The translations under genes were made by a program, and so were the position numbers. A stretch of 64,000 bases of DNA from Nereocystis luetkeana. Lineage: Eukaryota > Sar > Phaeophyceae > Laminariales > Laminariaceae. Below the pieces are notes generated by a model. That model worked only from the letters and a program-made list of their open reading frames with translations. It ran no database searches and had not been told where the DNA came from. The DNA is taken from the NCBI GenBank assembly GCA_031213475.1, contig JARUPZ010000020.1, forward strand, positions 7,907,207 to 7,971,206, written 5' to 3'. Position 1 is the first letter of the stretch, and each line of letters starts with the position of its first letter. Positions 9,507-55,496 of the stretch are shown here, in pieces.

Positions 9507-10183
9507 ATTGTATTGCCCATCCGCTGCAATTCACTAAAGGGGAGAGCCGGGTCGTAAGGACGGAGGGTCAACACCAGGACCAAGGGTTTGAGTACATGCG
9601 TCAAGTTGGTACGCGGAGAAGGTAGCGATGTAAGAAGTGGAGCAAGAGCAGATCACACCAGCCACAGAGGTACTTCGTACCTGATAATCGCTAACGCTTA
9701 CGTACCAGTATGGTGTTTGTGTCGTAGGCCGACTCCTTGCATGCTCTCCAAACCGAACATCGCAATTCAACAAACCAGGTATGTATACATGTCTGCACGT
9801 TCTGTGTTCGGTAGACTAAAAAACACAGGTCGCCACACACAGCCGCAGCGAAACCATGCCGAGGCAACCCGCCACGCCGAAATCACACGCTAGGGTGCCT
9901 TCCTGCTGACGTGTGGCACACACTTTAGACTCGTTAAAGTGGCCTAAACGAGATTACGCACACTTTGTTTGGGAAATTTCACCTCGAACAACGGCGATAA
10001 TCCATTTGTTTTGTCGTGAACGTAAAACAATATCGTACACAGGCCAGGTGTGCGTCACGCCTGTATGCGCCTTTGCTAATGCCAGGTCCTTACTCTGGGT
10101 TTTCGGTACGGACGAAGCATCAAACACAGGTGGAAGGTAAAACGGGACGCAAGGACGGGTTGTTGTCGGAACAACGAACAAAC

Positions 10184-13100
10184 CTGGATTATCGCCTCCT
10201 CTCCAAGGTTCAAGCCAATATCCTGGAAGTTGCCCGTGATTGGGTCGACCAAGACCATCAATTCCTTGGTGATCCTCATTTGCCCTGGACACAAGGCATG
10301 AAATTTCACACAGAGCGGGGTATCGCGTACGTTGTGGTTACATCGCTCTTCCACGGAGTCCATACACGTGACTAGGTGGCAAAATAATGGGTGCTCACGA
10401 TATTTGCCTATTTTACAATGAAAAATAGTGCCGCAGGCAGTACTTGTTCACGTTTCTTCAAGTACTCGATCCTACTGTACCACCACAACACGGGCAGCAC
10501 TGAGACGACAACCTCCACCTTATTCTAGCCGTCATCTTCACCAACAACACATCATGCCTCCACAAGTCTTACTCAACGCAAGTCGTGCTAACTGCTGCAA
10601 GGATCAAATTGTTACCTCTACAGATATGCATCATTCACGTTTCTGCCCCTACCGCAATTGGCTGGGAGGTACTTCAAAACACTACCTACTACTTGCACCA
10701 CCCCAACCAAGCGCTTATAGCACGCGGTCAAATACCTTGCGATGTGATCATGACCAAATTGTAGTCAAGAAACAGCCGGAAGCCCCCCTGAGCCATGGTG
10801 AACATCTGGAACTTCTCACACGAAGGAGCGAGAAGCTGCCCTTCCAATCGAGCGGGCATCGACCCGGGATCAGAGCATGTGAGCGGGAATAGACCCCAAA
10901 CGAAAGACACCTGGCGCGGCGCGATCGTACGGACCAGGCGTGGGAGGGCCGGGGGTGGCGGGGTATTGAAGAGGAGCCCTCAAAAGTAGTGATCGCTCGT
11001 ACGATACGTGACACCGCCTGTCTCACAAGAAGAAAAATGAAAACTTTATTTTACAGCAAGAAGGATAGTGATTCGGAATGGAGAGGGGAGGGGGGGACAT
11101 TTGTATGCAAGCAGCATCGGCGAACAAGAAAGACACAGACTGTGAAATATTCGTGTTCGACAAAGAAGGACTAAACGGGGTGACTCCAGCGTCTTCTTGT
11201 CCAATATCATACCCGGTAAGAGGCGGCCATAGGTCGCTCAGAGACCGAAAATACTTACCAAAAATCGAACGTACCGTGCTGCCGACACACCGTTCGGATA
11301 TTCAAAATTGCGTGATTTCTTGTTGGTCTGTCCTTAACTTAGTGCCGATGCGCTGCAGAGAGGCGTCATAGTCTACCGCAGCGGCGCATAAACAAACTTC
11401 GATTAGCCAAAACATGGCGGGACCCCCAAATTGGCTGCCGGCTATGCAGCCCAAAGCAATTTGTTGTCTCTCTGAGTATCAGAGTGCCAAATATACCTAC
11501 TGTAGTATAAGCTTGACCAGGGAATGACGGCCGACCAGGGCAAACAAATACCAGGTACGCTCTAACACCGGCAGAACCATTGTGAAGCAACAGTATGCTT
11601 GTATGCGTTGCTGTACTGTTCTTCACCTCGTACGTTCCGGAACCGGGAGCCACGTATGTACCGACATGCCGTCCAGGTTGCCCGAATTCCTTATCCTCCA
11701 GAAAACGATAAGCTGTCTCACGACCATGAGCAGGGCATGTACGGACCTCAACGACGTCCACACGGTTGTCCGCTGTGTGACCGCTGTGCAAAGAAAGCGT
11801 TTCGAAGAACAGTCGGGGGGGCATGCATGGCTGTTTGTCCATGTGCTTGTTAAGTAGAACTTCAACTTTACGTGGATTCGCTGACTTGGTTTCGAGCCTT
11901 TCGTTGCGTATGTGTCGGGGATCAGAGCCTGTGGCGCGCGTTTCATTCATCAGTCTGATCGTACATATTAAGGTAGAGGTGTACTTTTGTGACTATCTAG
12001 ACGACCCTTATATGTACAATCAGACTGGCAGATTTATCCCCGTGTGATGGGTCCTGTGTTTCATCTTTGGGTGCTACTTCGTATGTATGTGTGGAACGAA
12101 GTGCTTATCTGCTACGTATCATATACCAGTACACAGCAGTAGTATTTGTTCAGGTTTAGTAGCAGCCTGACGCCACACGGTAAGCGGGTGTAGCCCTTAC
12201 AAATCGACCTGACAAGAAACCACCGGTCGTTTCACGATCCCGGTTTCGACACCCAAAACAGAGACACTCCCAAACGCCTACTGTAGTAGCATGTCTCAAC
12301 CTCCGCGCACGGGTAGAACTTTCCGTAAAACTAAAACAGTCATTCTCACGGATTGTGAAAGCATGAGTTTCGTGAACCGTAGAATCAGCTATACGTACTT
12401 AGTTTTTTTGGCATGTGGTGTATGTGGTGTATGTATTGCTGTACACCCCTCGCTCTTGTTATGGTTTGTGCACCAGCTACAGCCGCAATTTGTGTTTAGA
12501 CGTGTATGGGCAAATTAACGGGGGTGGTGCGGTGCGCAAAACAAGGCTCGAACTTCGACCCAGCTTTTTCCTTGCTGCTTCGGTCCCTGCAATAAATACA
12601 CCGAAACTTCACTCAGAACCATTCCCAAAGCGCAACGGACGGACAACTCACCTCTGGAACACAAACGACTCCGGCGGCAGTGTAAGCGGTACCGGACACA
12701 TCTCGCCGTCGACAAGCGGCCTGTAGACCGCCACGCCGCCATCCGATGGCTGTTTTCGAGCTCGATTCGTGTTGATCAATATTTGTTTTTGGAAAAAAAC
12801 GTTTCCTCCTGGGCACGACAAAAACAATCCAAATGGCAAGAAAGGACAGCACTTCATGTGAATATCCTGGACAAGCTACAGCTGCCAAAAACAGCTGGGA
12901 GGGGTTGGGCTGGGGGGGGGGGGCGGGGTACTCATTTTCTGCTTGCCTTAGTGATCTGACAATTGACCGCGCATTCCCTTCGAGACGGAGCAGCTCGGAG
13001 GGGGGGGGGGGGGGGCGTTAGCGTGGGTACAATCGAATTCACCACCTGGGCAGACAATCAGGAGACTGCACAAAAAAGAACAGCCTCGAGGACAACAGCA

Positions 13101-17640: not shown

Positions 17641-17650
17641 CGAACATATA

Positions 17651-27112: not shown

Positions 27113-27564
27113 GAAAGAGACTAGGATGAGATACTCTTAACAGATGAAATACTCTCAACAATACCCATGCGTAACGGGTTTTCGCTCACAGCCATAGGGC
27201 GTCTGCATGTGTGTATGAGTAGCAGTAGTGATCTGTTCACACAGCACAAAGCCAAAGTTATCGACTTCAAAGTTTCTTTGCACCCATAAGCTTGATGAGG
27301 GGATCGCATGTCCTTGCACACAATCAGTTTCCGTGTAGCGTGCACAGAACGAATAATCTTTTGAAAAATAGCGAAAATCCATTTGTTTTGTCGTGAACGT
27401 ACAAATATCGTACACAGGCACAGGTCATGTCTGCGTCGCACCTGCATGCACTTTTGCTATTACCAGATCCATACTCTGGGTTGTCGGTCCAGACCAAGCG
27501 TCAAACACAAGTGGAAGGTATATTGGGATGCAAGGACGAGTTGTTGTCCAAACAACGAACAAAC

Positions 27565-28292
27565 CTGGATTATCGAATGCTCTTCATCGTCCAAGCCAAT
27601 AGCGTGGAGGTTGCGTTTGATGGGGTCGACCAAGACCATCAATTCCTTGGTGATCCTCATTTGCCCTGGACACAAGGCATGAAATTTCACACAGAGCGAG
27701 GTATCGCGTACGTTGTGGTTACATCGCTCTTCCCCGGAGTACATATACGTGACCAGGAGACAAAATAATGGGTGCTCACGATATTTGCCAATTTTACAGT
27801 GAAAAATAGTGCCGCAGGCAGTACTTGTTCACGTTTCTTCAGGTACTCGGTCCTACAGTACCACAAACAACACGGGCAGCAGTGTGACGACAACCTCCAC
27901 CTAGTCCCAGCCGTCATCATCACCAACAACACATCGTGCCTCCACAAGTCTTATTCAACGCAAGGCCTGCTATCTGTTGCAAGGATGAAACTGTTACCTC
28001 TACAGGTATTAGTCATAGACGCTTCTGCCGCTGCCACAGCTGGCTGGGAGGTACTTCACAACACCGTCTACTACTTGCACCACCCCAGCCAAGCACTTAT
28101 AGCACACGGTCAAATACCTTGCCAGGTGTTCATGACCAAATTGTGGTCAAGAAACAGCCGGAAGCCTTGCTGAGCCATGGTGCACATCTGGAACTTCTCA
28201 CGCGAAGGAGCGAGAAGCTGCCCTTCCAATCGAGCGGGCAGTGACGCGGGATCAAAGCATGTGAGCGGGATTATATCCCAAACGAAGGACAC
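27565..28292 (-). other. Representative PA14 module (unit 1): X exon 28,118-28,292, Z exon 27,565-27,665
   Basis: X: acceptor GCGCCAG, 58 codons plus one base, donor CAAG|GTATTT. Z: acceptor TGTGTCCAG, two bases plus 33 codons, donor CAG|GTTTGT (GTGTGT in some units). The intron inside a module is about 450 bp and between modules about 680 bp. In unit 10 the acceptor is TAG instead of CAG and still valid; the same change makes a stop on the plus strand, which argues that the plus frame is not the coding one. An alternative acceptor exists for a longer Z exon (to 27,823) with an extra 67-bp exon (27,924-27,990), also phase-compatible, but the short form fits PA14 better. Confidence 0.6.
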
Positions 28293-31200
28293 CTGGCGCG
28301 GCGCGATCGTACGGACCAGGGGTGGGAGGGGGGGTAGGCGGCGAGTTATTGGAGAGGAGACGTCAGAAGTAGTAATGGTTCATACGACACGCGACACCGC
28401 CTGCCTCACAAGAAGAAACATCGAAAAATGATATTTTACAGCAAGCAGGACGACAGTGATTCGCGAGGGAGAGAGAGAAGGGAAGGACATTTGTATGCAA
28501 GCAGCATCGGCGAACAAGAAAGACGCAGACTGTGAAATGTTCGTGTTCGATAGATAAGGACTAAACTGAGTGACTCCAACGCCTTCTTGTCCAATATTAT
28601 ACCCGGTATGAGGCGGCCGTAGGTCGCTCAGAGACCGGAAATACTTACCAAATATCAAACGTACCACGCTGCCGACACACGGTTCGCATATTCATGTTTG
28701 CGCGATATTTAGTCGGTCCGTCCTTAACTTAGTGCCGAATACGTTGTAGCCTGCACAGAACTAAGAAGCTTTTGAAAAATAGCGAAAACCCATTTGTTGC
28801 GAACGTACAAATATCGTACACAGGCACAGGTCATGTCTGCGTCGCACTTGCACGCACTTTTGCTAATACCAGATCCATACTCTGGGTTGTCGGTCCTGAC
28901 CAAGCATCAAACACAAGTGGAAGGTATATTGGGATGCAAGGACGAGTTGTTGTCCAAACAACGAACACACCTGGATTATCGAATGCTCTTCATAGTCCAA
29001 GCCAATAGCGTGGGAATTGCCTTTGATGGGGTCGACCAAGACCATCAATTCCTTGGTGGTCCTCATTTGCCCTGGACACAAGGAATGAAATTTCACGCAG
29101 AGCAAGGTATCGCGTACGTTGTGGATATATTGCTCTTCCCCGGAGTACATGTACGTGACCAGGAGACAAAATAATGGGTGCTCACGATACTTGCCAATTT
29201 TACAGTGAAAAATAGTGCCGCAGGCAGTACATGTTCACGTTTCTTCAGGTGCTCGGTCCTACAGTACCACAAACAACACGGGCAGCAGTGTGACGACAAC
29301 CTCCACCTAATCCCAGCCGTCATCATCACCAACAACATATCGTGCCTCCACAAGTCTTATTCAACGCAAGGCCTGCTAACTGCTGCAAGGATGAAACTGT
29401 TGCCTCTACAGATATTATTAAATAGTAATAGACGCTTCTGCCGCTGCCACAGCTGGCTGGGAGGTACTTCACAACACCGTCTACTACTTGCACCACCCCA
29501 GCCAAGCACTTATAGCACACGGTCATATACCTTGCCAGGTGTTCATGACCAAATTGTGGTCAAGAAACAGCCGGAAGCCTTCCTGAGCCATGGTGCACAT
29601 CTGGAACTTCTCACGCGAAGGAGCGAGAAGCTGCCCTTCCAAACGAGTGGGCAGTGACGCGGGATCAAAGCATGTGAGCGGGATTATATCCCAAACGAAG
29701 GACACCTGGCGCGGCGCGATCGTACGGACCAGGGGTGGTAGGGGGGGTAGGCGGCGAGTTATTGGAGAGGAGACCTCAGAAGTAGTAATCGTTCATACGA
29801 CACGCGACGCCGCCTGCCTCACAAGAAGAAACACCGAAAAATGATATTTTACAGCAAGCAGGACGACAGTGATTCGCGGAGGGGGTGGGAGGGGAGGGGC
29901 ATTTGTATGCAAGCAGCATCGGCGAAGAAGAAAGATACAGACTGTGAAATGTTCGCGTTCGACAGGGAAGGACTAAACTGAGTGACTCCAACGTCTTCTT
30001 GTCCATTATCATACCCGGGTATGGGGCGGCCGTAGGTCGCTCAGAGACCGGAAATACTTACCAAATATCAAACGTACCGCGCTGGCGACACACGGTTTGC
30101 ATATTCATGTTTGCGTGATATTTAGTCGGTCCGTCCTTAACTTAGTGCCGAATACGTTGTAGCCTGCACAGAACTAACAAGCTTTTGAAAAATATCGAAA
30201 ATCCATTCGTTTTGTTGTGAACGTACAAATATCGTACACAGGCACAGGTCATGTCTGCGTCGCACCTGCACGCACTTTTGCTAATACCAGATCCATACTC
30301 TGGGTTGTCGGGCCAGACGAAGCATCAAACACAAGTGGAAGGTATATTGGGATGCAAGGACGAGTTGTTGTCCAAACAACGAACAAACCTGGATTATCGA
30401 ATGCTCTTCATAGTCCAAGCCAATAGCGTGGAAGTTGCCTTTGATGGGGTCGACCAAGACCATCAATTCCTTGGTGATCCTCATTTGCCCTGGACACAAG
30501 GCATGAAATTTCACGCAGAGCAAGGTATCGCGTACGTTGTGGATATATTGCTCTTCCCCGGAGTACATATACGTGACCAGGAGACAAAATAATGGGTGCT
30601 CACGATATTTGCCAATTTTACAGTGAAAAATAGTGACGCAGGCAGTACTTGTTCACGTTTCTTCAGGTACTCGGTCCTACAGTACCACAAACAACACGGG
30701 CAGCAGTGTGACGGCAACCTCCACCTAGTCCCAGCCGTAATCATCACCAACAACATATCGTGCCTCCACGAGTCTCATTCAACGCAAGGCCTGCTAACTG
30801 CTGCAAGGATGAAACTGTTACCCCTACAGATATTATTAAATAGTCATAGACGCTTCTGCCGCTGCGACAGCTGGCTGGGAGGTACTTCACAACACCGTCT
30901 ACTACTTGCACCACCCCAGCCAAGCACTTATTGCACACGGTCAAATACCTTGCCAGGTGTTCATGACCAAATTGTGGTCAAGAGACAGCCGGAAGCCTTC
31001 CTGAGCCATGGTGCACATCTGGAACTTCTCACACGAAGGAGCGAGAAGCTGCCCTTCCAATCGAGCGGGCAGGGACCCGTGATCAAAGCATGTGAGCGGG
31101 ATTATATCCCAAACGAAGGACACCTGGCGCGGCGCGATCGTACGGACCAGGGGTGGTAGGGGGGTAGGCGGCGAGTTATTGGAGAGGAGACGTCAGAAGT

Positions 31201-34200
31201 AGTAATGGTTCATACGACACGCGACACCGCCTGCCTCACAAGAAGAAACATCGAAAAATGATATTTTACACCAAGAAATATAGTGATTCGGGAGGGGGGG
31301 GGGAGGGGGGGGGGACATTTGTATGCAAGCAGCATCGGCGAAGAAGAAAGACGCAGACTGTGAAATGTTCGTGTTCGACAGATAAGGACTAAACTGAGTG
31401 ACTCCAACGCCTTCTTGTCCAATATCATACCCAGGTATGAGGCGGCCGTAGGTCGCTCAGAGACCGAAAATACTTACCAAATCTCGAACGTACCGCGCTG
31501 CCGACACACGGTTTGCATATTCATGTTTGCGTGATATTTAGTCGGTCCGTCCTTAACTTAGTACGTTGTAGCCTGCACAGAACTAACAAGCTTTTGAAAA
31601 ATAGCGAAAATCCATTTGTTTTGTTGTGAACGTACAAATATCGTACACAGGCACAGGTCATGTCTGCGTCGCACCTGCACGCACTATTGCTATTATCATA
31701 TCCATACTCTGGGTTGTCGGTCCTGACCAAGCATCAAACACAAGTGGAAGGTATATTGGGATGCAAGGACGAGTTGCTGTCCAAACAACGAACAAACCTG
31801 GATTATCGAATGCTCTTCATAGTCCAAGCCAATAGCGTGGGAGTTGCCTTTGATGGGGTCGACCAAGACCATCAATTCCTTGGTGATCCTCATTTGCCCT
31901 GGACACAAGGAATGAAATTTCACGCAGAGCAAGGTATCGCGTACGTTGTGGATATATTGCTCTTCCCCGGAGTACATATACGTGACCAGGAGACAAAATA
32001 ATGGGTGCTCACGATATTTGCCAATTTTACAGTGAAAAATAGTGCCGCAGGCAGTACTTGTCCACGTTTCTTCAGGTACTCGGTCCTACTGTACCACAAA
32101 CAACACGGGCAGCAGTGTGACGACAACCTCCACCTAATCCCAGCCGTAATCATCACCAACAACACATCGTGCCTCCACAAGTCTTATTCAACGCAAGGCC
32201 TGCTAACTGCTGCAAGGATGAAACTGTTACCTCTACAGATATTATTAAATAGTCATAGACGCTTCTGCCGCTGCCACAGTTGGCTGGGAGGTACTTCACA
32301 ACACCGTCTACTACTTGCACCACCCCAGCCAAGCACTTATAGCACACGGTCAAATACCTTGCCAGGTGTTCATGACCAAATTGTGGTCAAGAGACAGCCG
32401 GAAGCCTTCCTGAGCCATGGTGCACGTCTGGAACTTCTCACACGAAGGAGCGAGAAGCTGCCCTTCCAATCGAGCGGGCAGTGACCCGTGATCAAAGCAT
32501 GTGAGCGGGATTATATCCCAAACGAAAGACACCTGGCGCGGCGCGATCGTACGGACCAGGGGTGGGAGGGGGGGTAGGTGGAGGGGTATTGGAGAGGAGA
32601 CGTCAGAAGTAGTAAGGGTTCATACGACACGCGACACCGCCTGCCTCACAGAAGAAACATCAAAAAATGATATTTTACAGCAAAAAATGTAGTGATTCGG
32701 GAGGGGGGGGGGAGGGAGGCACGTGTGTATGCAAGCAGGATCGGCGAACAAGAAAGACGCAGACTGTGAAATGTTCGTGTTCGACAGATAAGGACTAAGC
32801 TGAGTGACTCCAACGTCTTCTTGTCCAATAGTGTACACCCAGGTATGAGGCGGCCGTAGGTCGCTCAGAGACCGAAAATACTTACCGAATACCAAACGTA
32901 CCGCGCTGCCGACACACGGTTCGCATATTCATGTTTGCGTGATATTTAGTCGGTCCGTCCTTAACTTAGTGCCGAATACGTTGTAGCCTGCACAGAACTA
33001 ACAAGCTTTTGAAAAATAGCGAAAATCCATTTGTTGTGAACGTACAAATATCGTACACAAGCACAGGTCATGTCTGCGTCGCACCTGCATGCACTTTTGC
33101 TAATACCAGATCCATACTCTGGGTTGTCGGTCCTGACCAAGCATCAAACACAAGTGGAAGGCATATTGGGATGCAAGGACGAGTTGTTGTCCAAACAACG
33201 AACACACCTGGATTATCGAATGCTCTTCATAGTCCAAGCCAATAGCGTGGGAGTTGCCTTTGATGGGGTCGACCAAGACCATCAATTCCTTGGTGGTCCT
33301 CATTTGCCCTGGACACAAGGCATGAAATTTCATGCAGAGCAAGGTATCGCGTACGTTGTGGATATATTGCTCCTCCCCGGAGTACATATACGTGACCAGG
33401 AGACAAAATAATGGGTGCTCACGATATTTGCCAATTTTACAGCGAAAAATAGTGCCGCAGGCAGTACTTGTCCACGTTTCTTCAGGTGCTCGGTCCTACA
33501 GTACCACAAACAACACGGGCAGCAGTGTGACGACAACCTCCACCTAGTCCCAGCCGTAATCATCACCAACAACATATCGTGCCTCCACAAGTCTTATTCA
33601 ACGCAAGGCCTGCTAACTGCTGCAAGGATGAAACTGTTACCTCTACAGATATTATTAAATAGTCATAGACGCTTCTGCCGCTGCCACAGTTGGCTGGGAG
33701 ATACTTCACAACACCGTCTACTACTTGCACCACCCCAGCCAAGCACTTATAGCACACGGTCAAATACCTTGCCAGGTGTTCATGACCAAATTGTGGTCAA
33801 GAGACAGCCGGAAGCCTTCCTGAGCCATGGTGCACATCTGGAACTTCTCACACGAAAGAGCGAGAAGCTGCCCTTCCAATCGAGCGGGCAGGGACCCGTG
33901 ATCAAAGTATGTGAGCGGGATTATATCCCAAACGAAAGACACCTGGCGCGGCGCGATCGTACGGACCAGGGGTGGTAGGAGGGGTAGGCGGCGGGGTATT
34001 GGAGAGGAGCCGCCAGAAGTACTAAGGGTTCATACGACACGGGACACCGCCTGCCTCACAAGAAGAAACATCGAAAAATGATATTTTACACCAAGAAATA
34101 TAGTGATACGGGAGGGGGGGGGGAGGGAGGGAGGGACATTTGTATGCAAGCAGCATCGGCGAACAAGAAAGACGCAGACTGTGAAATGTTCGTGTTCGAC

Positions 34201-37200
34201 AGATAAGGACTAAGCTGAGTGACTCCAACGTCTTCTTGTCCAATATCATACCCAGGTATGAGGCGGCCGTAGGTCGCTCAGAGACCGAAAATACTTACCA
34301 AATCTCGAACGTACCGCGCTGGCGACACACGGTTCGCATATTCATGTTTGCGTGATATTTAGTCGGTCCGTCCTTAACTTAGTGCCGAATACGTTGTAGC
34401 CTGCACAGAACTAACAAGCTTTTGAAAAATAGCGAAAATCCATTTGTTTTGTTGTGAACGTACAAATATCGTACACAGGCACAGGTCATGTCTGCGTCGC
34501 ACCTGCACGCACTTTTGCTATTATCATATCCATACCCTGGGTTGTCGGTCCTGACCAAGCATCAAACACAAGTGGAAGGTATATTGGGATGCAAGGACGA
34601 GTTGTTGTCCAAACAACGAACAAACCTGGATAATCGAATGCTCTTCATAGTCCAAGCCCATAGCGTGGGAGTTGCCTTTGATGGGGTCGACCAAGACCAT
34701 CAATTCCTTGGTGATCCTCATTTGCCCTGGACACAAGGCATGAAATTTCACGCAGAGCAAGGTATCGCGTACGTTGTGGATATATCGCTCTTCCCCGGAG
34801 TACATATACGTGACCAGGAGACAAAATAATGGGTGCTCAAGATATTTGCCATTTTACAGTGAAAAATAGTGCCGCAGGCAGTACTTGTCCACGTTTCTTC
34901 AGGTACTCGGTCCTACTGTACCACAAACAACACGGGCAGCAGTGTGACGGCAACCTCCACCTAATCCCAGCCGTAATCATCACCAACAACACATCGTGCC
35001 TCCACAAGTCTTATTCAACGCAAGGCCTGCTAACTGCTGCAAGGATGAAACTGTTACCTCTACAGATATTATTAAATAGTCATAGACGCTTCTGCCGCTG
35101 CCACAGTTGGCTGGGAGGTACTTCACAACACCGTCTACTACTTGCACCACCCCAGCCAAGCACTTATAGCACACGGTCAAATACCTTGCCAGGTGTTCAT
35201 GACCAAATTGTGGTCAAGAGACAGCCGGAAGCCTTCCTGAGCCATGGTGCACGTCTGGAACTTCTCACACGGAGGAGCGAGAAGCTGCCCTTCCAATCGA
35301 GCGGGCAGTGACCCGTGATCAAAGCATGTGAGCGGGATTATATCCCAAACGAAAGACACCTGGCGCGGCGCGATCGTACGGACCAGGGGTGGGTGGGGGG
35401 TAGGTGGAGGGGTATTGGAGAGGAGACGTCAGAAGTACTAAGGGTTCATACGACACGCGACACCGCCTGCCTCACAAAAGAAACATCAAAAAATGTTTTT
35501 TTACAGCAAAAAATGTAGTGATTCGGGAGGGGGGGGGGAGGGGGGGGGGAGGGAGGCACGTGTGTATGCAAGCAGGATCGGCGAACAAGAAAGACGCAGA
35601 CTGTGAAATGTTCGTGTTCGACAGATAAGGACTAAGCTGAGTGACTCCAACGTCTTCTTGTCCAATAGTGTATACCCAGGTATGAGGCGGCCGTAGGTCG
35701 CTCAGAGACCGAAAATACTTACCAAATATCAAACGTACCGCGCTGCCGACACACGGTTCGCATCTTCATGTTTGCGCGATATTTAGTCGGTCCGTCCTTA
35801 ACTTAGTGCCGAATACGTTGTAGCCTGCACAGAACTAACAAGCTTTTGAAAAATAGCGAAAATCCATTTGTTGTGAACGTACAAATATCGTACACAAGCA
35901 CAGGTCATGTCTGCGTCGCAGCTGCACGCACTTTTGCTAATACCAGATCCATACTCTGGGTTGTCGGTCCTGACCAAGCATCAAACACAAGTGGAAGGCA
36001 TACTGGGATGCAAGGACGAGTTGTTGTCCAAACAACGAACACACCTGGATTATCGAATGCTCTTCATAGTCCAAGCCAATAGCGTGGGAGTTGCCTTTGA
36101 TGGGGTCGACCAAGACCATCAATTCCTTGGTGGTCCTCATTTGCCCTGGACACAAGGCATGAAATTTCACGCAGAGCAAGGTATCGCGTACGTTGTGGAT
36201 ATATTGCTCCTCCCCGGAGTACATATACGTGACCAGGAGACAAAATAATGGGTGCTCACGATGTTTGCCAATTTTACAGTGAAAAATAGTGCCGCAGGCA
36301 GTACTTGTCCACGTTTCTTCAGGTGCTCGGTCCTACAGTACCACAAACAACACGGGCAGCAGTGTGACGGCAACCTCCACCTAATCCCAGCCGTAATCAT
36401 CACCAACAACATATCGTGCCTCCACAAGTCTTATTCAACGCAAGGCCTGCTAACTGCTGCAAGGATGAAACTGTTACCTCTACAGATATTATTAAATAGT
36501 CATAGATGCTTCTGCCGCTGCCACAGCTCGCTGGGAGGTACTTCACAACACCGTCTACTACTTGCACCACCCCAGCCAAGCACTTATAGCACACGGTCAA
36601 ATACCTTGCCAGGTGTTCATGACCAAATTGTGGTCAAGAAACAGCCGGAAGCCTTCCTGAGCCATGGTGCACGTCTGGAACTTCTCACACGAAGGAGCGA
36701 GAAGCTGCCCTTCCAATCGAGCGGGCAGTGACCCGTGATCAAAGCATGTGAGCGGGATTATATCCCAAACGAAAGACACCTGGCGCGGCGCGATCGTACG
36801 GACCAGGGGTGGTAGGGGGGGTAGGTGGAGGGGTATTGGAGAGGAGACGTCAGAAGTAGTAAGGGTTCATACGACACGCGACACCGCCTGCCTCACAGAA
36901 GAAACATCAAAAAATGTTTCTTTACAGCAAGAAATGTAGTGATTCGGGAGGGGGGGGGGAGGGAGGCACGTGTGTATGCAAGCAGGATCGGCGAACAAGA
37001 AAGACGCAGACTGTGAAATGTTCGTGTTCGACAGATAAGGACTAAGCTGAGTGACTCCAACGTCTTCTTGTCCAATATCATACCCAGGTATGAGGCGGCC
37101 GTAGGTCGCTCAGAGACCGAAAATACTTACCAAATCTCGAACGTACCGCGCTGGCGACACACGGTTCGCATATTCATGTTTGCGTGATATTTAGTCGGTC

Positions 37201-40200
37201 CGTCCTTAACTTAGTGCCGAATACGTTGTAGCCTGCACAGAACTAACAAGCTTTTGAAAAATAGCGAAAATCCATTTGTTTTGTTGTGAACGTACAAATA
37301 TCGTACACAGGCACAGGTCATGTCTGCGTCGCACCTGCACGCACTTTTGCTATTATCATATCCATACCCTGGGTTGTCGGTCCTGACCAAGCATCAAACA
37401 CAAGTGGAAGGTATATTGGGATGCAAGGACGAGTTGTTGTCCAAACAACGAACAAACCTGGATAATCGAATGCTCTTCATAGTCCAAGCCCATAGCGTGG
37501 GAGTTGCCTTTGATGGGGTCGACCAAGACCATCAATTCCTTGGTGATCCTCATTTGCCCTGGACACAAGGCATGAAATTTCACGCAGAGCAAGGTATCGC
37601 GTACGTTGTGGATATATCGCTCTTCCCCGGAGTACATATACGTGACCAGGAGACAAAATAATGGGTGCTCAAGATATTTGCCATTTTACAGTGAAAAATA
37701 GTGCCGCAGGCAGTACTTGTCCACGTTTCTTCAGGTACTCGGTCCTACTGTACCACAAACAACACGGGCAGCAGTGTGACGGCAACCTCCACCTAATCCC
37801 AGCCGTAATCATCACCAACAACACATCGTGCCTCCACAAGTCTTATTCAACGCAAGGCCTGCTAACTGCTGCAAGGATGAAACTGTTACCTCTACAGATA
37901 TTATTAAATAGTCATAGACGCTTCTGCCGCTGCCACAGTTGGCTGGGAGGTACTTCACAACACCGTCTACTACTTGCACCACCCCAGCCAAGCACTTATA
38001 GCACACGGTCAAATACCTTGCCAGGTGTTCATGACCAAATTGTGGTCAAGAGACAGCCGGAAGCCTTCCTGAGCCATGGTGCACGTCTGGAACTTCTCAC
38101 ACGGAGGAGCGAGAAGCTGCCCTTCCAATCGAGCGGGCAGTGACCCGTGATCAAAGCATGTGAGCGGGATTATATCCCAAACGAAAGACACCTGGCGCGG
38201 CGCGATCGTACGGACCAGGGGTGGGTGGGGGGTAGGTGGAGGGGTATTGGAGAGGAGACGTCAGAAGTACTAAGGGTTCATACGACACGCGACACCGCCT
38301 GCCTCACAAAAGAAACATCAAAAAATGTTTTTTTACAGCAAAAAATGTAGTGATTCGGGAGGGGGGGGGGAGGGGGGGGGGAGGGAGGCACGTGTGTATG
38401 CAAGCAGGATCGGCGAACAAGAAAGACGCAGACTGTGAAATGTTCGTGTTCGACAGATAAGGACTAAGCTGAGTGACTCCAACGTCTTCTTGTCCAATAG
38501 TGTATACCCAGGTATGAGGCGGCCGTAGGTCGCTCAGAGACCGAAAATACTTACCAAATATCAAACGTACCGCGCTGCCGACACACGGTTCGCATCTTCA
38601 TGTTTGCGCGATATTTAGTCGGTCCGTCCTTAACTTAGTGCCGAATACGTTGTAGCCTGCACAGAACTAACAAGCTTTTGAAAAATAGCGAAAATCCATT
38701 TGTTGTGAACGTACAAATATCGTACACAAGCACAGGTCATGTCTGCGTCGCAGCTGCACGCACTTTTGCTAATACCAGATCCATACTCTGGGTTGTCGGT
38801 CCTGACCAAGCATCAAACACAAGTGGAAGGCATACTGGGATGCAAGGACGAGTTGTTGTCCAAACAACGAACACACCTGGATTATCGAATGCTCTTCATA
38901 GTCCAAGCCAATAGCGTGGGAGTTGCCTTTGATGGGGTCGACCAAGACCATCAATTCCTTGGTGGTCCTCATTTGCCCTGGACACAAGGCATGAAATTTC
39001 ACGCAGAGCAAGGTATCGCGTACGTTGTGGATATATTGCTCCTCCCCGGAGTACATATACGTGACCAGGAGACAAAATAATGGGTGCTCACGATGTTTGC
39101 CAATTTTACAGTGAAAAATAGTGCCGCAGGCAGTACTTGTCCACGTTTCTTCAGGTGCTCGGTCCTACAGTACCACAAACAACACGGGCAGCAGTGTGAC
39201 GGCAACCTCCACCTAATCCCAGCCGTAATCATCACCAACAACATATCGTGCCTCCACAAGTCTTATTCAACGCAAGGCCTGCTAACTGCTGCAAGGATGA
39301 AACTGTTACCTCTACAGATATTATTAAATAGTCATAGATGCTTCTGCCGCTGCCACAGCTCGCTGGGAGGTACTTCACAACACCGTCTACTACTTGCACC
39401 ACCCCAGCCAAGCACTTATAGCACACGGTCAAATACCTTGCCAGGTGTTCATGACCAAATTGTGGTCAAGAAACAGCCGGAAGCCTTCCTGAGCCATGGT
39501 GCACGTCTGGAACTTCTCACACGAAGGAGCGAGAAGCTGCCCTTCCAATCGAGCGGGCAGTGACCCGTGATCAAAGCATGTGAGCGGGATTATATCCCAA
39601 ACGAAAGACACCTGGCGCGGCGCGATCGTACGGACCAGGGGTGGTAGGGGGGGTAGGTGGAGGGGTATTGGAGAGGAGACGTCAGAAGTAGTAAGGGTTC
39701 ATACGACACGCGACACCGCCTGCCTCACAGAAGAAACATCAAAAAATGTTTCTTTACAGCAAGAAATGTAGTGATTCGGGAGGGGGGGGGGAGGGAGGCA
39801 CGTGTGTATGCAAGCAGGATCGGCGAACAAGAAAGACGCAGACTGTGAAATGTTCGTGTTCGACAGATAAGGACTAAGCTGAGTGACTCCAACGTCTTCT
39901 TGTCCAATAGTGTATACCCAGGTATGAGACGGCCGTAGGTCGCTCAGAGACCGAAAATACTTACCAAATATCAAACGTACCGCGCTGCCGACACACGGTT
40001 CGCATATTCATGTTTGCGCGATATTTAGTCGGTCCGTCCTTAACTTAGTGCCGAATACGTTGTAGCCTGCACAGAACTAACAAGCTTTTGAAAAATAGCG
40101 AAAATCCATTTGTTGTGAACGTACAAATATCGTACACAAGCACAGGTCATGTCTGCGTCGCACCTGCATGCACGTTTGCTAATACCAGATCCATACTCTG

Positions 40201-43200
40201 GGTTGTCGGTCCTGACCAAGCATCAAACACAAGTGGAAGGCATATTGGGATGCAAGGACGAGTTGTTGTCCAAACAACGAACAAACCTGGATTATCGAAT
40301 GCTCTTCATAGTCCAAGCCAATAGCGTGGGAGTTGCCTTTGATGGGGTCGACCAAGACCATCAATTCCTTGGTGGTCCTCATTTGCCCTAGACACAAGGC
40401 ATGAAATTTCACGCAGAGCAAGGTATCGCGTACGTTGTGGATATATTGCTCCTCCCCGGAGTACATATACGTGACCAGGAGACAAAATAATGGGTGCTCA
40501 CGATATTTGCCAATTTTACAGTGAAAAATAGTGACGCAGGCAGTACTTGTCCACGTTTCTTCAGGTGCTCGGTCCTACAGTACCACAAACAACACGGGCA
40601 GCAGTGTGACGGCAACCTCCACCTAATCCCAGCCGTAATCATCACCAACAACATATCGTGCCTCCACAAGTCTTATTCAACGCAAGGCCTGCTAACTGCT
40701 GCAAGGATGAAACTGTTACCTCTACAGATATTATTAAATAGTCATAGACGCTTCTGCCGCTGCCACAGCTGGCTGGGAGGTACTTCACAACACCGTCTAC
40801 TACTTGCACCACCCCAGCCAAGCACTTATAGCACACGGTCAAATACCTTGCCAGGTGTTCATGACCAAATTGTGGTCAAGAGACAGCCGGAAGCCTTCCT
40901 GAGCCATGGTGCACGTCTGGAACTTCTCACACGGGGGAGCGAGAAGCTGCCCTTCCAATCGAGCGGGCAGGGACCCGTGATCAAAGCATGTGAGCGGGAT
41001 TATATCCCAAACGAAGGACACCTGGCGCGGCGCGATCGTACGGACCAGGGGTGGTAGGGGGGTAGGCGGCGAGTTATTGGAGAGGAGACGTCAGAAGTAG
41101 TAATGGTTCATACGACACGCGACACCGCCTGCCTCACAAGAAGAAACATCGAAAAATGATATTTTACAGCAAGCAGGACGACAGTGATTCGCGAGGGAGA
41201 GGGGGAAGGGAAGGACATTTGTATGCAAGCAGGATCGGCGAAGAAGAAAGACACAGACTGTGAAATGTTCGTGTTCGATAGATAAGGACTAAGCTGAGTG
41301 ACTCCAACGCCTTCTTGTCCAATATCTTACCCGGTATCAGGCGGCCGTAGGTCGCTCAGAGACCGAAAATACTTACCAAATATCAAACGTACCACGCTGC
41401 CGACACACGGTTCGCATATTCATGTTTGCGCGATATTTAGTCGGTCCGTCCTTAACTTAGTGCCGAATACGTTGTAGCCTGCACAGAACTAACAAGCTTT
41501 TGAAAAATAGCGAAAATCCATTTGTTTTGTTGTGAACGTACAAATATCGTACACAGGCACAGGTCATGTCTGCGTCGCACCTGCACGCACTTTTGCTAAT
41601 ACCAGATCCATACTCTGGGTTGTCGGTTCTGACCAAGCATCAAACACAAGTGGAAGGTATATTGGGATGCAAGGACGAGTTGTTGTCCAAACAACGAACA
41701 CACCTGGATTATCGAATGCTCTTCATAGTCCAAGCCAATAGCGTGGGAGTTGCCTTTGATGGGGTCGACCAAGACCATCAATTCCTTGGTGATCCTCATT
41801 TGCCCTGGACACAAGGAATGAAATTTCACGCAGAGCAAGGTATCGCGTACGTTGTGGATATATTGCTCTTCCCCGGAGTACATATACGTGACCAGAAGAC
41901 AAAATAATGGGTGCTCACGATATTTGCCAATTTTACAGTGAAAAATAGTGACGCAGGCAGTACTTGTTCACGTTTCTTCAGGTGCTCGGTCCTACAGTAC
42001 CACAAACAACACGGGCAGCAGTGTGACGACAACCTCCACCTAATCCCAGCCGTCATCATCACCAACAACATATCGTGCCTCCACAAGTCTTATTCAACGC
42101 AAGGCCTGCTAACTGCTGCAAGGATGAAACTGTTACCTCTACAGATATTATTAAATAGTCATAGACGCTTCTGCCGCTGCCACAGCTGGCTGGGAGGTAC
42201 TTCACAACACCGTCTACTACTTGCACCACCCCAGCCAAGCACTTCTAGCACACGGTCAAATACCTTGCCAGGTGCTCATGACCAAATTGTGGTCAAGAGA
42301 CAGCCGGAAGCCTCCCTGAGCAATGGTGCACATCTGGAACTTCTCACGCGAAGGAGCGAGTAGCTGCCCTTCCAATCGAGCGGGCAGTGACGCGGGATCA
42401 AAGCATGTGAGCGGGATTATATCCCAAACGAAGGACACCTGGTGCGGCGCGATCGTACGGACCAGGGGTGGGAGAGGGGGTAGGCGGCGGGGTATTGGAG
42501 AGGAGACGTCAGAAGTAGTAAGGGTTCATACGACACGCGACACCGCCTGCCTCACAAGAAGAAACACCGAAAAATGTTTTTTTACAGCAAGAAATATAGT
42601 GATTCGGGAAAGAGTGGGAGGGAGGCACGTGTGTATGCAAGCAGCATCGGCGAACAAGAAAGACGCAGACTGTGAAATGTTCGTGTTCGACAGATAAGGA
42701 CTAAGCTGAGTGACTCCAACGTCTTCTTGTCAAATAGTGTACCCAGGTATGAGGCAGCCGTAGGTCGCTCAGAGACCGGAAATACTTACCAAATATCAAA
42801 CGTACCGCGCTGCCGACACGCGGTTCGCATATTCATGTTTGCGTGATATTTAGTCGGTCCGTCCTTAACTTAGTGCCGAATACGTTGTAGCCTGCACAGA
42901 ACTAACAAGCTTTTGAAAAATAGCGAAAATCCATTTGTTTTGTTGTGAACGTACAAATATCGTACACAGGCACAGGTCATGTCTGCGTCGCACCTGCACG
43001 CACTTTTGCTATTATCATATCCATACTCTGGGTTGTCGGTCCTGACCAAGCATCAAACACAAGTGGAAGGTATATTGGGATGCAAGGACGAGTTGTTGTC
43101 CAAACAACGAACACACCTGGATTATCGAATGCTCTTCATAGTCCAAGCCAATAGCGTGGGAGTTGCCTTTGATGGGGTCGACCAAGACCATCAATTCCTT

Positions 43201-46200
43201 GGTGGTCCTCATTTGCCCTGGACACAAGGCATGAAATTTCACGCAGAGCAAGGTATCGCGTACGTTGTGGATATATTGCTCTTCCCCGGAGTACATATAC
43301 GTGACCAGGAGACAAAATAATGGGTGCTCACGATATTTGCCAATTTTACAGTGAAAAATAGTGCCGCAGGCAGTACTTGTTCACGTTTCTTCAGGTACTC
43401 GGTCCTACTGTACCACAAACAACACGCCCAGCAGTGTGACGACAACCTCCACCTAGTCCCAGCCGTCATCATCACCAACAACATATCGTGCCTCCACAAG
43501 TCTTATTCAACGCAAGGCCTGCTAACTGCTGCAAGGATGAAACTGTTACCTCTACAGGTATTAGTCATAGACGCTTCTGCCGCTGCCACAGCGGGCTGGG
43601 AGGTACTTCACAACACTGTCTACTACTTGCACCACCCCAGCCAAGCACTTATAGCACACGGTCAAATACCTTGCCAGGTGCTCATGACCAAATTGTGGTC
43701 AAGAGACAGCCGGAAGCCTTCCTGAGCCATGGTGCACATCTGGAACTTCTCACGCGAAGGAGCGAGAAGCTGCCCTTCCAATCGAGCGGGCAGTGACGCG
43801 GGATCAAAGCATGTGAGCGGGATTATATCCCAAACGAAGGACACCTGGCGCGGCGCGATCGTACGGACCAGGGGTGGTAGGGGGGTAGGCGGCGAGTAAT
43901 TGGAGAGGAGACGTCAGAAGTAGTAATGGTTCATACGACACGCGACACCGCCTGCCTCACAAGAAGAAACACCGAAAAATGATATTTTACAGCAAGCAGG
44001 ACGACAGTGATTCGCGAGGGAGAGGGGGAAGGGAAGGACATTTGTATGCAAGCAGCATCGGCGAACAAGAAAGACGCAGACTGTGAAATGTTCGTGTTCG
44101 ATAGATAAGGACTAAGCTGAGTGACTCCAACGCCTTCTTGTCCAATATCATACCCGGGTATGAGGCGGCCGTAGGTCGCTCAGAGACCGAAAATACTTAC
44201 CAAATCTCGAACGTACCGCGCTGCCGACACACGGTTCGCATATTCATGTTTGCGCGATATTTAGTCGGTCCGTCCTTAACTTAGTGCCGAATACGTTGTA
44301 GCCTGCACAGAACTAACAAGCTTTTGAAAAATAGCGAAAATCCATTCGTTTTGTTGTGAACGTACAAATATCGTACACAGGCACAGGTCATGTCTGCGTC
44401 GCACCTACACGCACTTTTGCTAATACCAGATCCATACTCTGGGTTGTCGGGCCAGACGAAGCATCAAACACAAGTGGAAGGTATATTGGGATGCAAGGAC
44501 GAGTTGTTGTCCAAACAACGAACACACCTGGATTATCGAATGCTCTTCATAGTCCAAGCCAATAGCGTGGGAGTTGCCTTTGATGGGGTCGACCAAGACC
44601 ATCAATTCCTTGGTGGTCCTCATTTGCCCTGGACACAAGGCATGAAATTTCACGCAGAGCAAGGTATCGCGTACGTTGTGGGTATATTGCTCTTCCCCGG
44701 AGTACATATACGTGACCAGGAGACAAAATAATGGGTGCTCACGATATTTGCCAATTTTACAGTGAAAAATAGTGCCGCAGGCAGTACTTGTTCACGTTTC
44801 TTCAGGTGCTCGGTCCTACTGTACCACAAACAACACGGGCAGCAGTGTGACGACAACCTCCACCTAATCCCAGCCGTCATCATCACCAACAACATATCGT
44901 GCCTCCACAAGTCTTATTCAACGCAAGGCCTGCTAACTGCTGCAAGGATGAAACTGTTACCTCTACAGATATTATTAAATAGTCATAGACGCTTCTGCCG
45001 CTGCGACAGCTGGCTGGGAGGTACTTCACAACACCGTCTACTAGTTGCACCACCCCAGCCAAGCACTTATAGCACACGGTCAAATACCTTGCCAGGTGCT
45101 CATGACCAAATTGTGGTCAAGAGACAGCCGGAAGCCTCCCTGAGCAATGGTGCACATCTGGAACTTCTCACGCGAAGGAGCGAGAAGCTGCCCTTCCAAT
45201 CGAGCGGGCAGTGACGCGGGATCAAAGCATGTGAGCGGGATTATATCCCAAACGAAGGACACCTGGTGCGGCGCGATCGTACGGACCAGGGGTGGGAGGG
45301 GGGGTAGGCGGCGGGGTATTGGAGAGGAGCCGTCAGAAGTACTAAGGGTTCATACGACACGCGACATCGCCTGCCTCACAAGAAGAAACACCGAAAAATG
45401 TTTTTTTACAGCAAGAAATATAGTGATTCGGGAGGGGGGTGGGAGGGAGGCACGTGTGTATGCAAGCAGGATCGGCGAACAAGAAAGACACAGACTGTGA
45501 AATGTTCGTGTTCGACAGAGAAGGACTAAGCTGAGTGACTCCAACGCCTTCTTGTCCAATATCATACCCAGGTATGAGGCGGCCGTAGGTCGCTCAGAGA
45601 CCGAAAAATACTTATCAAATACCAAACGTACCGCGCTGCCGACACACGGTTCGCATATTCATGTTTGCGCGATATTTAGTCGGTCGGTCGTGGCGTTCTA
45701 CGATAGAGGTTCATCCTAAAGTTTCTGAGGCTCCTCATATAAGGAGCTCCATACCTCATCCGAAACCTGACTTCAGCAAAAATGAAAATGCATCGCGGCG
45801 AATAATCCCAAGACCCAAGTCTACAAAAGTTTTTTTTTCGAAATCAAGATTGACATTCCGACGATTTGGGGTCAAGGAACCCCGTCTTTCAGAAACGAAA
45901 TAGCGGAAATTTGCTACCTCTATCGTAGAACGGGTCTGTCCTTAACTTAGTGCCGAATACGTTGTAGAGAGGCGTCATAGTCTACCGCAGCGAAGCACAA
46001 ACACACTATGAAATATAAAACATGGCGGGGAGTCCAAATGGGCTGCCGGCTATAGCCCAAAGAAGATTGTTGTCTTGCTGAGTGTCGAATATACCTGGTA
46101 TAAGCTTGACCAGAGAAATACGGCCGATCAGGGCAAACAAATACCAGGTACGATCTAACACCGGCAGTACTACTATAAAGCAACTATATGGTTGTATGCG

Positions 46201-48807
46201 TTGTTGTACTGTTCTTCACCTCGTACGTTCCGGAACCGGGAGCCACGTATGTACCGACAAGCCGTCCAGATTGCCGCACGTCTTTATTCTCCAGAAAACG
46301 ATCATTTGTCGTAGCACCCCGAGCAGGGCATGTACGGACCTCAAGGACGTCCGTACGGTTGTCCGCTATGTGACTGCTGCACGAAGAAAGCGTTTTAAAA
46401 AGCAGTTGGGGGGGCATGCATGGCTGTTTAAGTACGCGTTTGCTAAGCAGCACCTTCACTTTACGTGGCTTCACTGGCTTGGTTTTGAGCCTTGTTTACG
46501 TATGTTTCGGGGATCAGAGCCTGTGGCGCGCGTTTCATTCATTAGTTTCATCGTACATATTAAGGTAGAGGTGTACTTTTGTGGCTGCGTATCTTAAGGA
46601 CCCTTATATGTACGATCAGCCCGGCAGATTTATCCCCGTATGATGGGTCCTGTGTTTCATATTTGGGTGCTACTTCGTATGCATGTGTGAAACGAAGTGT
46701 TTATCAACTCCGTATCATATACCAGTGCACAGCAGCAGTATTTGTTCAGGTTCAGTAGTACTTGCTTCAGCCTGACGCCACACGGTAAGCGGGTGTGACC
46801 CTTACGAATCCACCTCACAAGAAAACATGGGTCGTTCCACGATCCCAGCTTCGACATCCCAAACAGAGACACTTCGAAATGCCTACTGTAGTAGCATGTC
46901 TCAGCCTCCGAGCACGTATACAACTTTCCGTAAAAATAAAACCTTCAATCACACGGACTGTGAAAGTATGAGTTTCGCGACCTGTGAAATCAGGCTGTAC
47001 GTACCTAGTTATATTGGCATGTATGTATGAAGTGTATGCATTGTTGTACACCCCTCGCTCCTGTTATGGTATGTGCACCAGCTACAGCCGCGTTTTGAGT
47101 TTAGACGTGTGCGGGCAATGGAACGGGGGTGGTGCGGTACGCCTATCAAGGCTCGAACTTCGTTCTAGCTTTTCCTTCGTTGCTTAGGCCCCTGCAGATA
47201 ATGCAGGCAAAATCCACGCGAACCCATTCGCAAAGCGCAACGGACAACTCACCTCTGGGACGCAGATGACTCCATCGGCAGTGTAAGTGGTACCGGACAC
47301 ATCTCGCCGTCGACAAGCGGCCTGTAGACCGCCACGCCGCCATCCGATGGTTGTTCTTGAGCTCCATTCGTGTTGATCAATATTGTTTTAAAGAAAAATA
47401 CGTTTCCTCCTGGGTACGACAAAACAATACCAATGACCAGAAAGGGCAGCAAACCATGTGAATATCCTGGACAAGCTACAGCTGCCAAAACCAGCTTGGG
47501 GGGGGGGCGTTAGGGTGGCTACTATCTAATTCACCACCTGGGCAGACGATCAGAAGTCTGTTCGAAAAAAAGTCGCCAAGACGACATTAGCGGTTGCTTC
47601 ACCAAGAACCATCGAACACAAGATGTCCAAACAAGTGCTTTTGAACACCGTAACGTGCAAACGTTTCATCAATAGGTGCAGGGACACAACCGACGATGCT
47701 TAACCCTTTTAGTCCTGCACTCCACAAAAGCCTTAATCTAACTCTAATTCAAGGTGGTTTGTCCCCACAACGGGATTGAGGCCTTCAAGTAGACAAGCAA
47801 GCGCGACTGACTGTGGGCTAAGAATACGCCGAGACGTTTTATGCCCTCCTCTAACCAGACAACATCATCTTTAACAAAGAACATCGTGGAAACGAGGGTT
47901 CGAAAAAACGACTGAAGGCTCGAGCAAAAAATATCAAGGCTTCATAGTGTAAGGTTTTTTATGGTTTTCGGGCGCTGTTTTAGCGGCCCACGGCGTAACG
48001 CCGATTGAAACGGGTTTCGATAGTTCAAAATGCTACGGTGCGGTGGGGTGTGGTTCGGTATGGTGCAAACATGCTTTCAGCTGCTGTTTCGTACCGTGCA
48101 GCTGACGGTGCACCGTTCAAAACTACGAGGTATTTCGCGGCTCACCGTAGGGCTAAACCGTACCCGGACGGTGAGAAACTTGCAGCCCTCGGCGCTCTCG
48201 CCTTACCCGTAGACGGAACTGCCAGCATACTATGTATTGAACTCAGCATATGTGAATGTGCACAAGTCGCCTCGGGTCTCAAGTATAGCTAAATATTACA
48301 AGCGTCAGCCACAGACTAGGCGAAGAAACGGGCCGGCGTTAGGTTTTATGAGGTAGTTTCTTCTGACATGAGTACGAAACAACAAGAGGTATCAGGTACC
48401 TGGCACGTCATGGCGCCATCGTACGCGCCTTTACGCTTCAACTCAAACTAATAGCTATCAACGACAAAACCCTGGCATAAAACAGTATCGAGCCCCCACA
48501 ACAACATACACCCACCTCCCTTCGCGGGCCCGCCGTTGTTGACGTATTCATCGACGTAGAAGATCGCGGTGTGATCGGAGGTGGTTAATTCCTGTGGGGC
48601 AAGCTTTAGGGCGGCATCGGGCAAAAGGGGAATATTAACGTGTTCAGGCCTTGGACGCTTTGCTGCGGATACTAAAATCGCACCGTCACAAAGCCCATAT
48701 ATGATGCTTGGTGCATCCCTAAGAGCAACGGGTCCCACAGATGTTTTTATCCGGTGAAAGTCAAAACGTGATCGCTGGCGCACCTCCGCGGATTCCGTGG
48801 TGCTGTT
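27565..48807 (-). CDS. Gene B: PA14-like protein with thirteen tandem two-exon modules
   Basis: 5' exons on the minus strand: 48,807 or 48,783-48,516 (exit 1); 48,218-48,146 (2/2); 47,321-47,253 (1/2); 46,376-46,220 (1/0). Thirteen modules follow, each an X exon of 175 bp (entry 0, exit 1) and a Z exon of 101 bp (entry 2, exit 0). X exons end at 45,262, 43,844, 42,438, 41,021, 39,611, 38,191, 36,779, 35,359, 33,942, 32,532, 31,123, 29,705 and 28,292; Z exons start at 44,528, 43,117, 41,704, 40,287, 38,877, 37,458, 36,045, 34,626, 33,208, 31,798, 30,389, 28,971 and 27,565. Every phase matches. Each module gives 92 residues: LPARLEGQLLAPS ... GFRLFLDHNLVMNTWQ, then ITKELMVLVDPIKG ... HAIGLDYEEHS, then VSFVWD of the next module. 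This follows the PA14 pattern (W/R-x-G-x-x-x-x-P; G-x-R-L-x-x-D; L-x-x-G; I-x-L-x-Y-x-E; V-x-x-x-W). PA14 domains bind carbohydrate in many surface or secreted proteins. Total module length is about 1,196 residues. The start codon, signal peptide and 3' end are not found. Confidence 0.62.
34170..39905. repeat. 2,832-bp higher-order repeat: units 6-7 copied as units 8-9
   Basis: Sequence from about 34,170 to 37,073 recurs at +2,832 (about 37,002-39,905) with no difference noticed, while other unit pairs differ at many sites. The most recent event in the array was therefore duplication of a two-unit block, or the assembly duplicated it. Confidence 0.85.
45694..45932. mobile_element. 239-bp MITE-like element at the array edge
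   Basis: Perfect 17-bp terminal inverted repeats (CGTTCTACGATAGAGGT at 45,694-45,710 and its complement at 45,916-45,932). It sits in the stretch that reads AGTCGGTCCGTCCTTAAC in the other units. GGTC-like bases on both sides could be a target duplication but are not exact. No coding capacity. Confidence 0.75.
45933..48680. repeat. Segmental duplication, copy B (partner 11,340-14,213)
   Basis: Colinear with copy A; it carries the four 5' exons of gene B. Exon lengths of 69 and 157 bp are identical in both copies. The 73-bp exon has acceptor GGCAG here but no AG at that place in copy A. The duplication breakpoint is near 48,680, within exon 1. Confidence 0.85.
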
Positions 48808-48861
48808 CTGTTGTTACGTACGCGCTGATCACCCTTATATCCCCTCGTCTAATGATTTAGT

Positions 48862-49537: not shown

Positions 49538-49539
49538 AC

Positions 49540-50160
49540 CAAGTCATGCGCCTTCGAGAAAACTGGCAGCACCTACTATTAATAGTAGAAGAGCCATGGC
49601 CATATAACTTGGATCGGTCAGCTCGAGACATTCGCGGCTGAACGTAGGCTATATAATTGCTTCAGATGCGAAATAAATAACCAGAGTATATTGTAGCGTT
49701 CGATAAAAACCACATGAGATACCTTGCTGAACATTCTGCATGATGACACACAACCTCTATCATGCAAAAAAAGGTGTTGTATTCACAACGTTACGAAGGC
49801 ATGATGCGTGGCTAGGTTTGTACAGGTAAAGCCAGATGATGCTAGCAGAGAGGTATACCTGGTCCCTACTCATGGGCTTAACGAGGTACCAGTGTTTTCG
49901 CAACGCACACTGTTGTTTGTGCTGCGTTTATATCACGCACTACTGTAGTACTTCATCTGCGGCAATCATTGCATTCCTCACAATCACTATCAGTCGGGGG
50001 CTCCCTGCATGTGACGGTGGTTCGACAAAAACGTGCAAAACCACTGCGAGATGTTTGGCGATGCCACTCGAAAAAAAAGCTAACATCAACAACAAGAGGA
50101 AATCGCTATGAGCTGTTAATAGCCTGCACTTTGTGGGTGGGAGTTGACCGACACAAACTA
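49540..50160. other. No gene seen
   Basis: Interval between the fold-back and the minus-strand exon at 50,163. Only short frames. Confidence 0.4.
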
Positions 50161-55425: not shown

Positions 55426-55496
55426 TTTGATATTATTCGTTTTGGATTATTTTGTTTGGTGCTCAATCCACCAATGGATGTACCTGATATGTAATA

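Follow-up and report, generated by a model that had tools for sequence, protein, structure and literature searches.

Does a tandem array of in-frame exons amount to a gene? The question is raised by an array on the minus strand of a 64,000-nucleotide stretch of the genome of the brown alga Nereocystis luetkeana (the window), which spans positions 7907207-7971206 of contig JARUPZ010000020.1 (C20; 10.74 Mb) in an assembly of 465 Mb and 1,987 contigs. Position numbers below are those of the window. A first-pass annotation had read the array as one working gene for a lectin-like protein made of thirteen PA14-like modules. Our analysis suggests that it is probably a tandemly amplified exon pair from a PA14 gene, a relic that is drifting neutrally.

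A PA14 exon pair in thirteen tandem copies

Self-comparison of the window resolved a tandem array at 27334..45967 (minus strand), consisting of 13 units of approximately 1.41 kb as annotated earlier. Numbered from U1 at the low-coordinate end to U13 at the high end, the units start at 27397, 28803, 30221, 31630, 33040, 34458 and 35877 (U1-U7) and at 37290, 38709, 40119, 41536, 42949 and 44360 (U8-U13), and they are 93.5-100% identical in pairwise comparisons. The motif CTACAACGTATTCGGCAC occurs 12 times, marking the 5' end of the array and 11 of the 12 unit junctions. A single diverged copy of the unit, P (9986..11348, minus strand), is 85-88% identical to the array units. The array does not extend to 48807, as had been annotated. 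Rather, 45933..48671 (minus strand) is a 5' flank that is paralogous to 11325-14195 beside P (77-84%), indicating that the array locus and P are, as judged by alignment, two copies of one locus of which only the array locus was amplified.

Each of the 13 units, and P likewise, contains two minus-strand blocks, X (175 bp) and Z (101 bp), which are preceded by AG, followed by GT and open in 14/14 copies. X is entered in phase 0 and breaks off after the first base of a codon that Z completes; Z exits in phase 0, and the resulting module of 276 bp (92 codons) both enters and leaves in phase 0. The first-pass annotation described these blocks accurately for all 13 units, and a phase-symmetric tandem exon unit of this type is what would be expected of a ROCO-like exon-array gene. 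X lies at 45088..45262 in U13 and, from high to low coordinates in the further units, at 43670-43844, 42264-42438, 40847-41021, 39437-39611, 38017-38191, 36605-36779, 35185-35359, 33768-33942, 32358-32532, 30949-31123 and 29531-29705, ending with 28118..28292 in U1, the last module. Z lies at 44528..44628 in U13, then at 43117-43217, 41704-41804, 40287-40387, 38877-38977, 37458-37558, 36045-36145, 34626-34726, 33208-33308, 31798-31898, 30389-30489 and 28971-29071, and finally at 27565..27665 in U1, where G-to-R and Y-to-D changes fall at family-invariant positions. In P, X occupies 10736-10910 and Z 10184-10284. All are on the minus strand, and both blocks are best described as probable PA14 exon relics, X being homologous to PA14 exons of a gene cluster elsewhere on C20.

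PA14 is the only Pfam family drawn by one module, which spans positions 48-121 of the 147-position profile. While this agrees with the family proposed in the first-pass annotation, the two single modules tested score only 14.6 and 11.4 bits against PF07691, below its 24-bit cut-off; P does not score, and neither X alone nor Z alone matches any Pfam family. Concatenated copies reach 28 bits for PA14 but also drew five unrelated families (E 0.00024-0.084), indicating that repetition inflates the PA14 score of such a query. Two joined modules gave a weak match in the PDB to the PA14 protein RsgI3 (E 0.001 overall, 4.1 and 10 for the individual stretches), and when four joined modules were compared with proteins, none of the 8,000 candidates scored was a relative at E <= 0.01.

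The paralogues are more informative. Among the best candidates, which alone were scored in the genome profile and unit-DNA searches, exon-level matches to PF07691 exceed the cut-off at 13 genomic places, all outside the window: ten at C20 5.7-6.3 Mb, one at C20 2.29 Mb, one on contig C24 and one on contig C2. The unit DNA matches the ten copies of the C20 5.7-6.3 Mb cluster at 67-73% identity. X matches C20 copies that exceed the Pfam cut-off on their own (tblastn E ~1e-15 in a comparison with 20 loci), and Z matches their Z exon at E 0.005, with order and phase the same. The C24, C2 and C20 loci that we compared share a structure of at least four exons, E1-X-Z-E4, encoding one PA14 domain, with E1 reading SVTQLLPGGL...RVDPQ and E4 reading LMWSS...; these paralogues are called whole with respect to those four exons only. 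As read in the C24 gene, the E1-to-X and Z-to-E4 joins both fall between codons (phase 0), and the X-to-Z join splits a codon after its first base. The X and Z boundaries in the paralogues are identical to those of the window copies, bearing out the PA14 ancestry, strand, splice joints and phases that had been proposed. When their exons are joined, the C24 and C20 paralogues score 87.4 and 66.5 bits as PA14. The four-exon C24 set has 35 protein matches at E <= 1e-5, the named ones being from Discosporangium, Choristocarpus, Laminaria, Sphacelaria, Hapterophycus and Scytosiphon, along with P0007, labelled Undpi1 and read as Undaria pinnatifida. P0001-P0005 and P0008 come from named brown algae, and P0007, a predicted protein, runs through the same X-to-Z join and matches RsgI3 at 1.6e-32. 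By homology, then, the module corresponds to the central part of a PA14 domain. The Trp of VSFVW, the final W of the pattern given in the first-pass annotation, corresponds to the Trp of the family motif FNWG at the start of X and not to the last PA14 strand, which is encoded by E4 in the paralogues.

Compared with the C20 locus, both the array locus and P lack approximately 540 bp that include E1, and the sequence to either side of this gap aligns. The E1-less site lies at 46039..46203 (minus strand) in the array flank, where the flanking sequence is collinear with the longer paralogous locus, and the same state is found at 11431-11612 beside P. The E1 and E4 peptides of four paralogues found nothing better in the window than E 0.14 and E 0.057, respectively, and the C20 E4 region matched no window DNA at E <= 1. 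The module thus has neither the first strands of the domain (E1) nor the last (E4). A candidate relic of E0, the exon before E1, can be aligned by eye at 46220..46320 (minus strand), where tblastn with the E0 of relatives gave no match.

Selection on the modules

To compare constraint on the window copies with that on their paralogues, we fitted a codon model to ten sequences (C24, C2, C20a, two copies from the C20 cluster, P and four of the 13 units) on a tree that we fixed. A model with two omegas (lnL -1631.49) fits better than one with a single omega (lnL -1646.98; p 2.6e-8), with omega at 0.168 for the background paralogues and 1.160 for the window copies. Fixing the window omega at 1 fits as well (p 0.65), and selection on the amino acids of the modules is thus not detectable. 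Pairwise pN/pS is 0.92 among the 13 units and 1.16 between the units and P. Codon changes within units comprise 7 silent, 18 replacing and 1 multiple, compared with a neutral ratio of 26:70. X differs from a C20 cluster copy by 28-29%, a divergence similar to the 17-30% of non-coding blocks of the locus.

The changes are also distributed without regard to position. In five window copies, changed residues make up 15-17 of the 35 positions that are invariant in four paralogues and 29-33 of the 57 others (Fisher p 0.20-1.0), and the constraint on core residues with diversification elsewhere that would be expected of an expressed ROCO-like exon-array gene is not seen. When each paralogue is scored at positions invariant in the other three, the C20 cluster copy has changed at 5/40, C2 at 4/39, C20a at 8/43 and C24 at 13/48; over the 40 positions on which the C20 cluster copy was scored (those invariant in C24, C2 and C20a), U10 has changed at 19 and P at 21. 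The Trp of ARWEG is lost in all five window copies tested, the Tyr and Asp of the YHD motif are lost in all four units tested, and P has lost the Trp near the end of X. We rejected positive selection on the grounds that an omega of 1.16 does not differ from 1 (p 0.65) and the changes are not position-specific. It is most likely that the window copies evolve like non-coding DNA, under neutral drift. An omega near 1 together with exon loss is the pattern of an unprocessed pseudogene, and, with E1 deleted, E4 not found and the modules below the Pfam cut-off, it argues against the single working repeat-protein gene that the first-pass annotation had proposed.

A sliding pN/pS scan across the flank and the unit listed short stretches with low ratios on either strand, the minimum being 0.12 for 9 changes near 46660 (plus strand). 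Of the stretches listed, none is the X frame and one overlaps Z (U10 versus P, 0.36); given the many overlapping stretches, we draw no inference from them. A short plus-strand frame at 46644-46775 has a pN/pS of 0.12-0.15 between the two flank copies on 8-9 changes, which may be chance.

Open frames and competing readings

Several observations weigh against a neutral relic. In 14/14 copies, X and Z are free of stops and frameshifts and retain their splice dinucleotides, whereas stops or frameshifts would be expected in the exons of an unprocessed pseudogene. As a control, we used neighboring non-coding DNA. Of the windows open in the C20 copy, 12/343 of X size and 137/823 of Z size are open in both flanks, and of the windows open in U10, 61/245 of X size and 222/605 of Z size stay open in all 13 units. 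The joint chance of the X/Z openness by this local control is ~5e-4, a rough figure since the windows overlap, independence is assumed, and X and Z were chosen because they are open. In an earlier form of the control, 1/48 windows of 273 bp stayed open. In addition, the sole indel that sets Z apart from the paralogues spans 9 bp and keeps the frame, and variable columns are slightly fewer in exons than in introns, both among units only (26/276 versus 146/1017, p 0.035) and with P included (47/276 versus 234/1017, p 0.033). Finally, since E1 has phase 0 at both ends, its loss alone would keep the frame.

The retained frames and splice sites favor a living, fast-evolving repeat protein in which 13 PA14-derived modules would be spliced in frame, their amino acids under relaxed or diversifying selection while frame and splice sites are preserved, in principle like the exon-shuffled leucine-rich repeat arrays of brown algal ROCO receptors. 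The phase symmetry of the unit points the same way, as does a brown algal precedent in which phase-symmetric tandem exons are reported to be coupled with diversifying selection (PMC11378527). We nevertheless consider such a gene unlikely. Core residues are changed as often as others, E1 is absent and E4 was not found, the omega of the window copies, P among them, does not differ significantly from 1, and the open frame around the candidate E0 evolves neutrally too (pN/pS 1.21 between the array flank and the P flank). Moreover, an antisense frame of 123 codons, which we regard as meaningless, is open in 12/13 units and in P, indicating that open frames this long are not unusual here, and the openness of all 13 copies is weak evidence because, being near-identical, the copies do not count as independent. 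This antisense frame, a control for chance openness, is one of the long plus-strand frames of the unit, which we weighed as rival genes and dismissed since none had a family match over cut-off. Pfam searches with seven window frames found none over cut-off (best E 0.012, for a plus-strand unit frame), nor did searches with ten window frames in a second set (best E 0.0076). The window yielded no tRNA and no Rfam family at gathering score.

A variant with quite a low probability is that transcription and splicing of the array yield 13 rebuilt PA14 half-domains in a chain, serving as a length-variable adhesive or recognition protein that would maintain frame and splicing while its sequence changes freely. 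In such a chain the Z-to-X join (...IIQ/VSFVW...) would let the first strand of the next module replace the missing E4 strand. Very unlikely, in our estimation, is a satellite-like array whose persistence or spread has nothing to do with the protein (chromosome structure, or no reason), with the exons as passengers, a reading that overlaps in practice with that of a relic. Against it, when the unit DNA was compared with its own genome, 25/25 listed matches fell on C20 and no tandem array of this unit was found outside the window, although this search is a weak one, since it lists best candidates only and omits the window's own units, leaving room for other arrays. It is highly improbable that the repeat number is wholly or partly an assembly artefact, with a two-unit block that is 99.8% identical (2,964 bp) reflecting misassembly. 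U6 and U8 are 100.0% identical, and U7 and U9 are 99.5% identical, as such an error might produce, but most other unit pairs differ by 2-6.5%, which is not expected from a single unit falsely repeated. A neutrally drifting relic of a PA14 exon pair thus accounts best for these data.

Origin of the array and comparison with known systems

The relic array may have arisen in a few steps. A PA14 locus would have been copied, E1 lost at both copies, and the X-Z pair amplified at one. The unit junction joins sequence downstream of Z to sequence upstream of X, and, since by eye both flanks at the joint share CTACA, the first duplication may have occurred across this short motif. Later growth would have proceeded by whole units, including a two-unit step such as unequal exchange would give. 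A recent two-unit (2.83-kb) duplication is seen at 34114..39909 (minus strand), where 34114-37077 and 36946-39909 are 99.8% identical over 2,964 bp (6 mismatches). Taken at face value, this points to recent exchange, although it might, improbably, reflect an assembly error, and it is in line with the earlier proposal that unequal crossing over of a phase-symmetric module changes repeat number.

The minus strand of the window from 122 to 50821 is, in pieces, collinear with C20:6.115-6.145 Mb (~63-80% identity; matched stretch 6.1225-6.144 Mb), by which measure the two regions are an old intrachromosomal segmental duplication. At C20 5.73-6.28 Mb there are ten similar PA14 locus copies, of which four face one way and six the opposite way, at intervals of ~44-56 kb within each orientation group. 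This arrangement marks the cluster, 1.6-2.2 Mb away from the window, as a large inverted segmental amplification. The three cluster copies whose X exons were compared are separated by 1-2 silent changes, while the copy at C20:6.081-6.091 Mb has AT in place of GT after X, so not every cluster copy need be intact.

Several other features were observed in the window. The repeat of the array stops at ~45689, with its 5' junction motif at 45967, and ~240 bp of the outermost unit (45690-45932) align with neither the other units nor P; most of this piece resembles a spot at C20:2.29 Mb (80% over 235 bp). At 8447-8911 (minus strand), where E4 would be expected downstream of P, there is a 154-codon open frame with degenerate AxVRYDGSGxSS-type repeats and no Pfam family above cut-off. 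Three tandem 1,127-bp repeats (~96-99%) at 17648-20950 have inverted relatives at 55494-57613 (93% and 76%) and others near the C20 PA14 cluster, and are possibly a mobile element. Imperfect palindromes at 48852-49547 (~700 bp, 79%) and 6919-8116 (1.2 kb, 73%) resemble foldback elements.

If the relic reading is correct, a two-exon fragment that by chance has the same phase at its two outer ends can give rise to a striking in-frame array. Openness and phase symmetry would then come free, and alone they do not show a gene. The single copy, the 13-copy array and the full-domain paralogues, all on one contig, make a compact brown algal example of exon-pair amplification, in a group where discussion of how receptors diversify has turned to tandem exon arrays. 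Were the array expressed after all, it would constitute a new repeat architecture. Our search of open-licence PMC papers found no title on PA14 arrays in brown algae and no paper on PA14 in Ectocarpus.

PA14 domains often bind sugars, and PA14 lectins such as MpPA14 do so through an Asp-Asp (DcisD) motif that holds Ca2+ (PMC8092209). The array belongs to the same domain family, but its translated modules align QE, QG or QQ with this motif in 14/14 cases, so the lectin-like role proposed earlier is not supported. The place is taken by His-Gly in C2, C20a and the C20 cluster and by Gln-Gly in P0007, while C24 keeps Asp-Asp. With the closest paralogues also lacking the motif, canonical sugar binding is unsupported even for the near ancestor of the array. 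With brown algal PA14 proteins such as P0007 the array shares X and Z as homologs of consecutive exons, but it has only these two middle exons, repeated 13-fold without E1 or E4 and with no detectable selection on the protein. The exon-shuffled leucine-rich repeat arrays of brown algal ROCO genes likewise consist of tandem phase-symmetric exons whose number can change in frame. In those genes each repeat is one 72-bp phase-2 exon and a ROC domain is also present, whereas the array described here would be a two-exon fragment of one domain, evolving neutrally in the absence of its partner exons.
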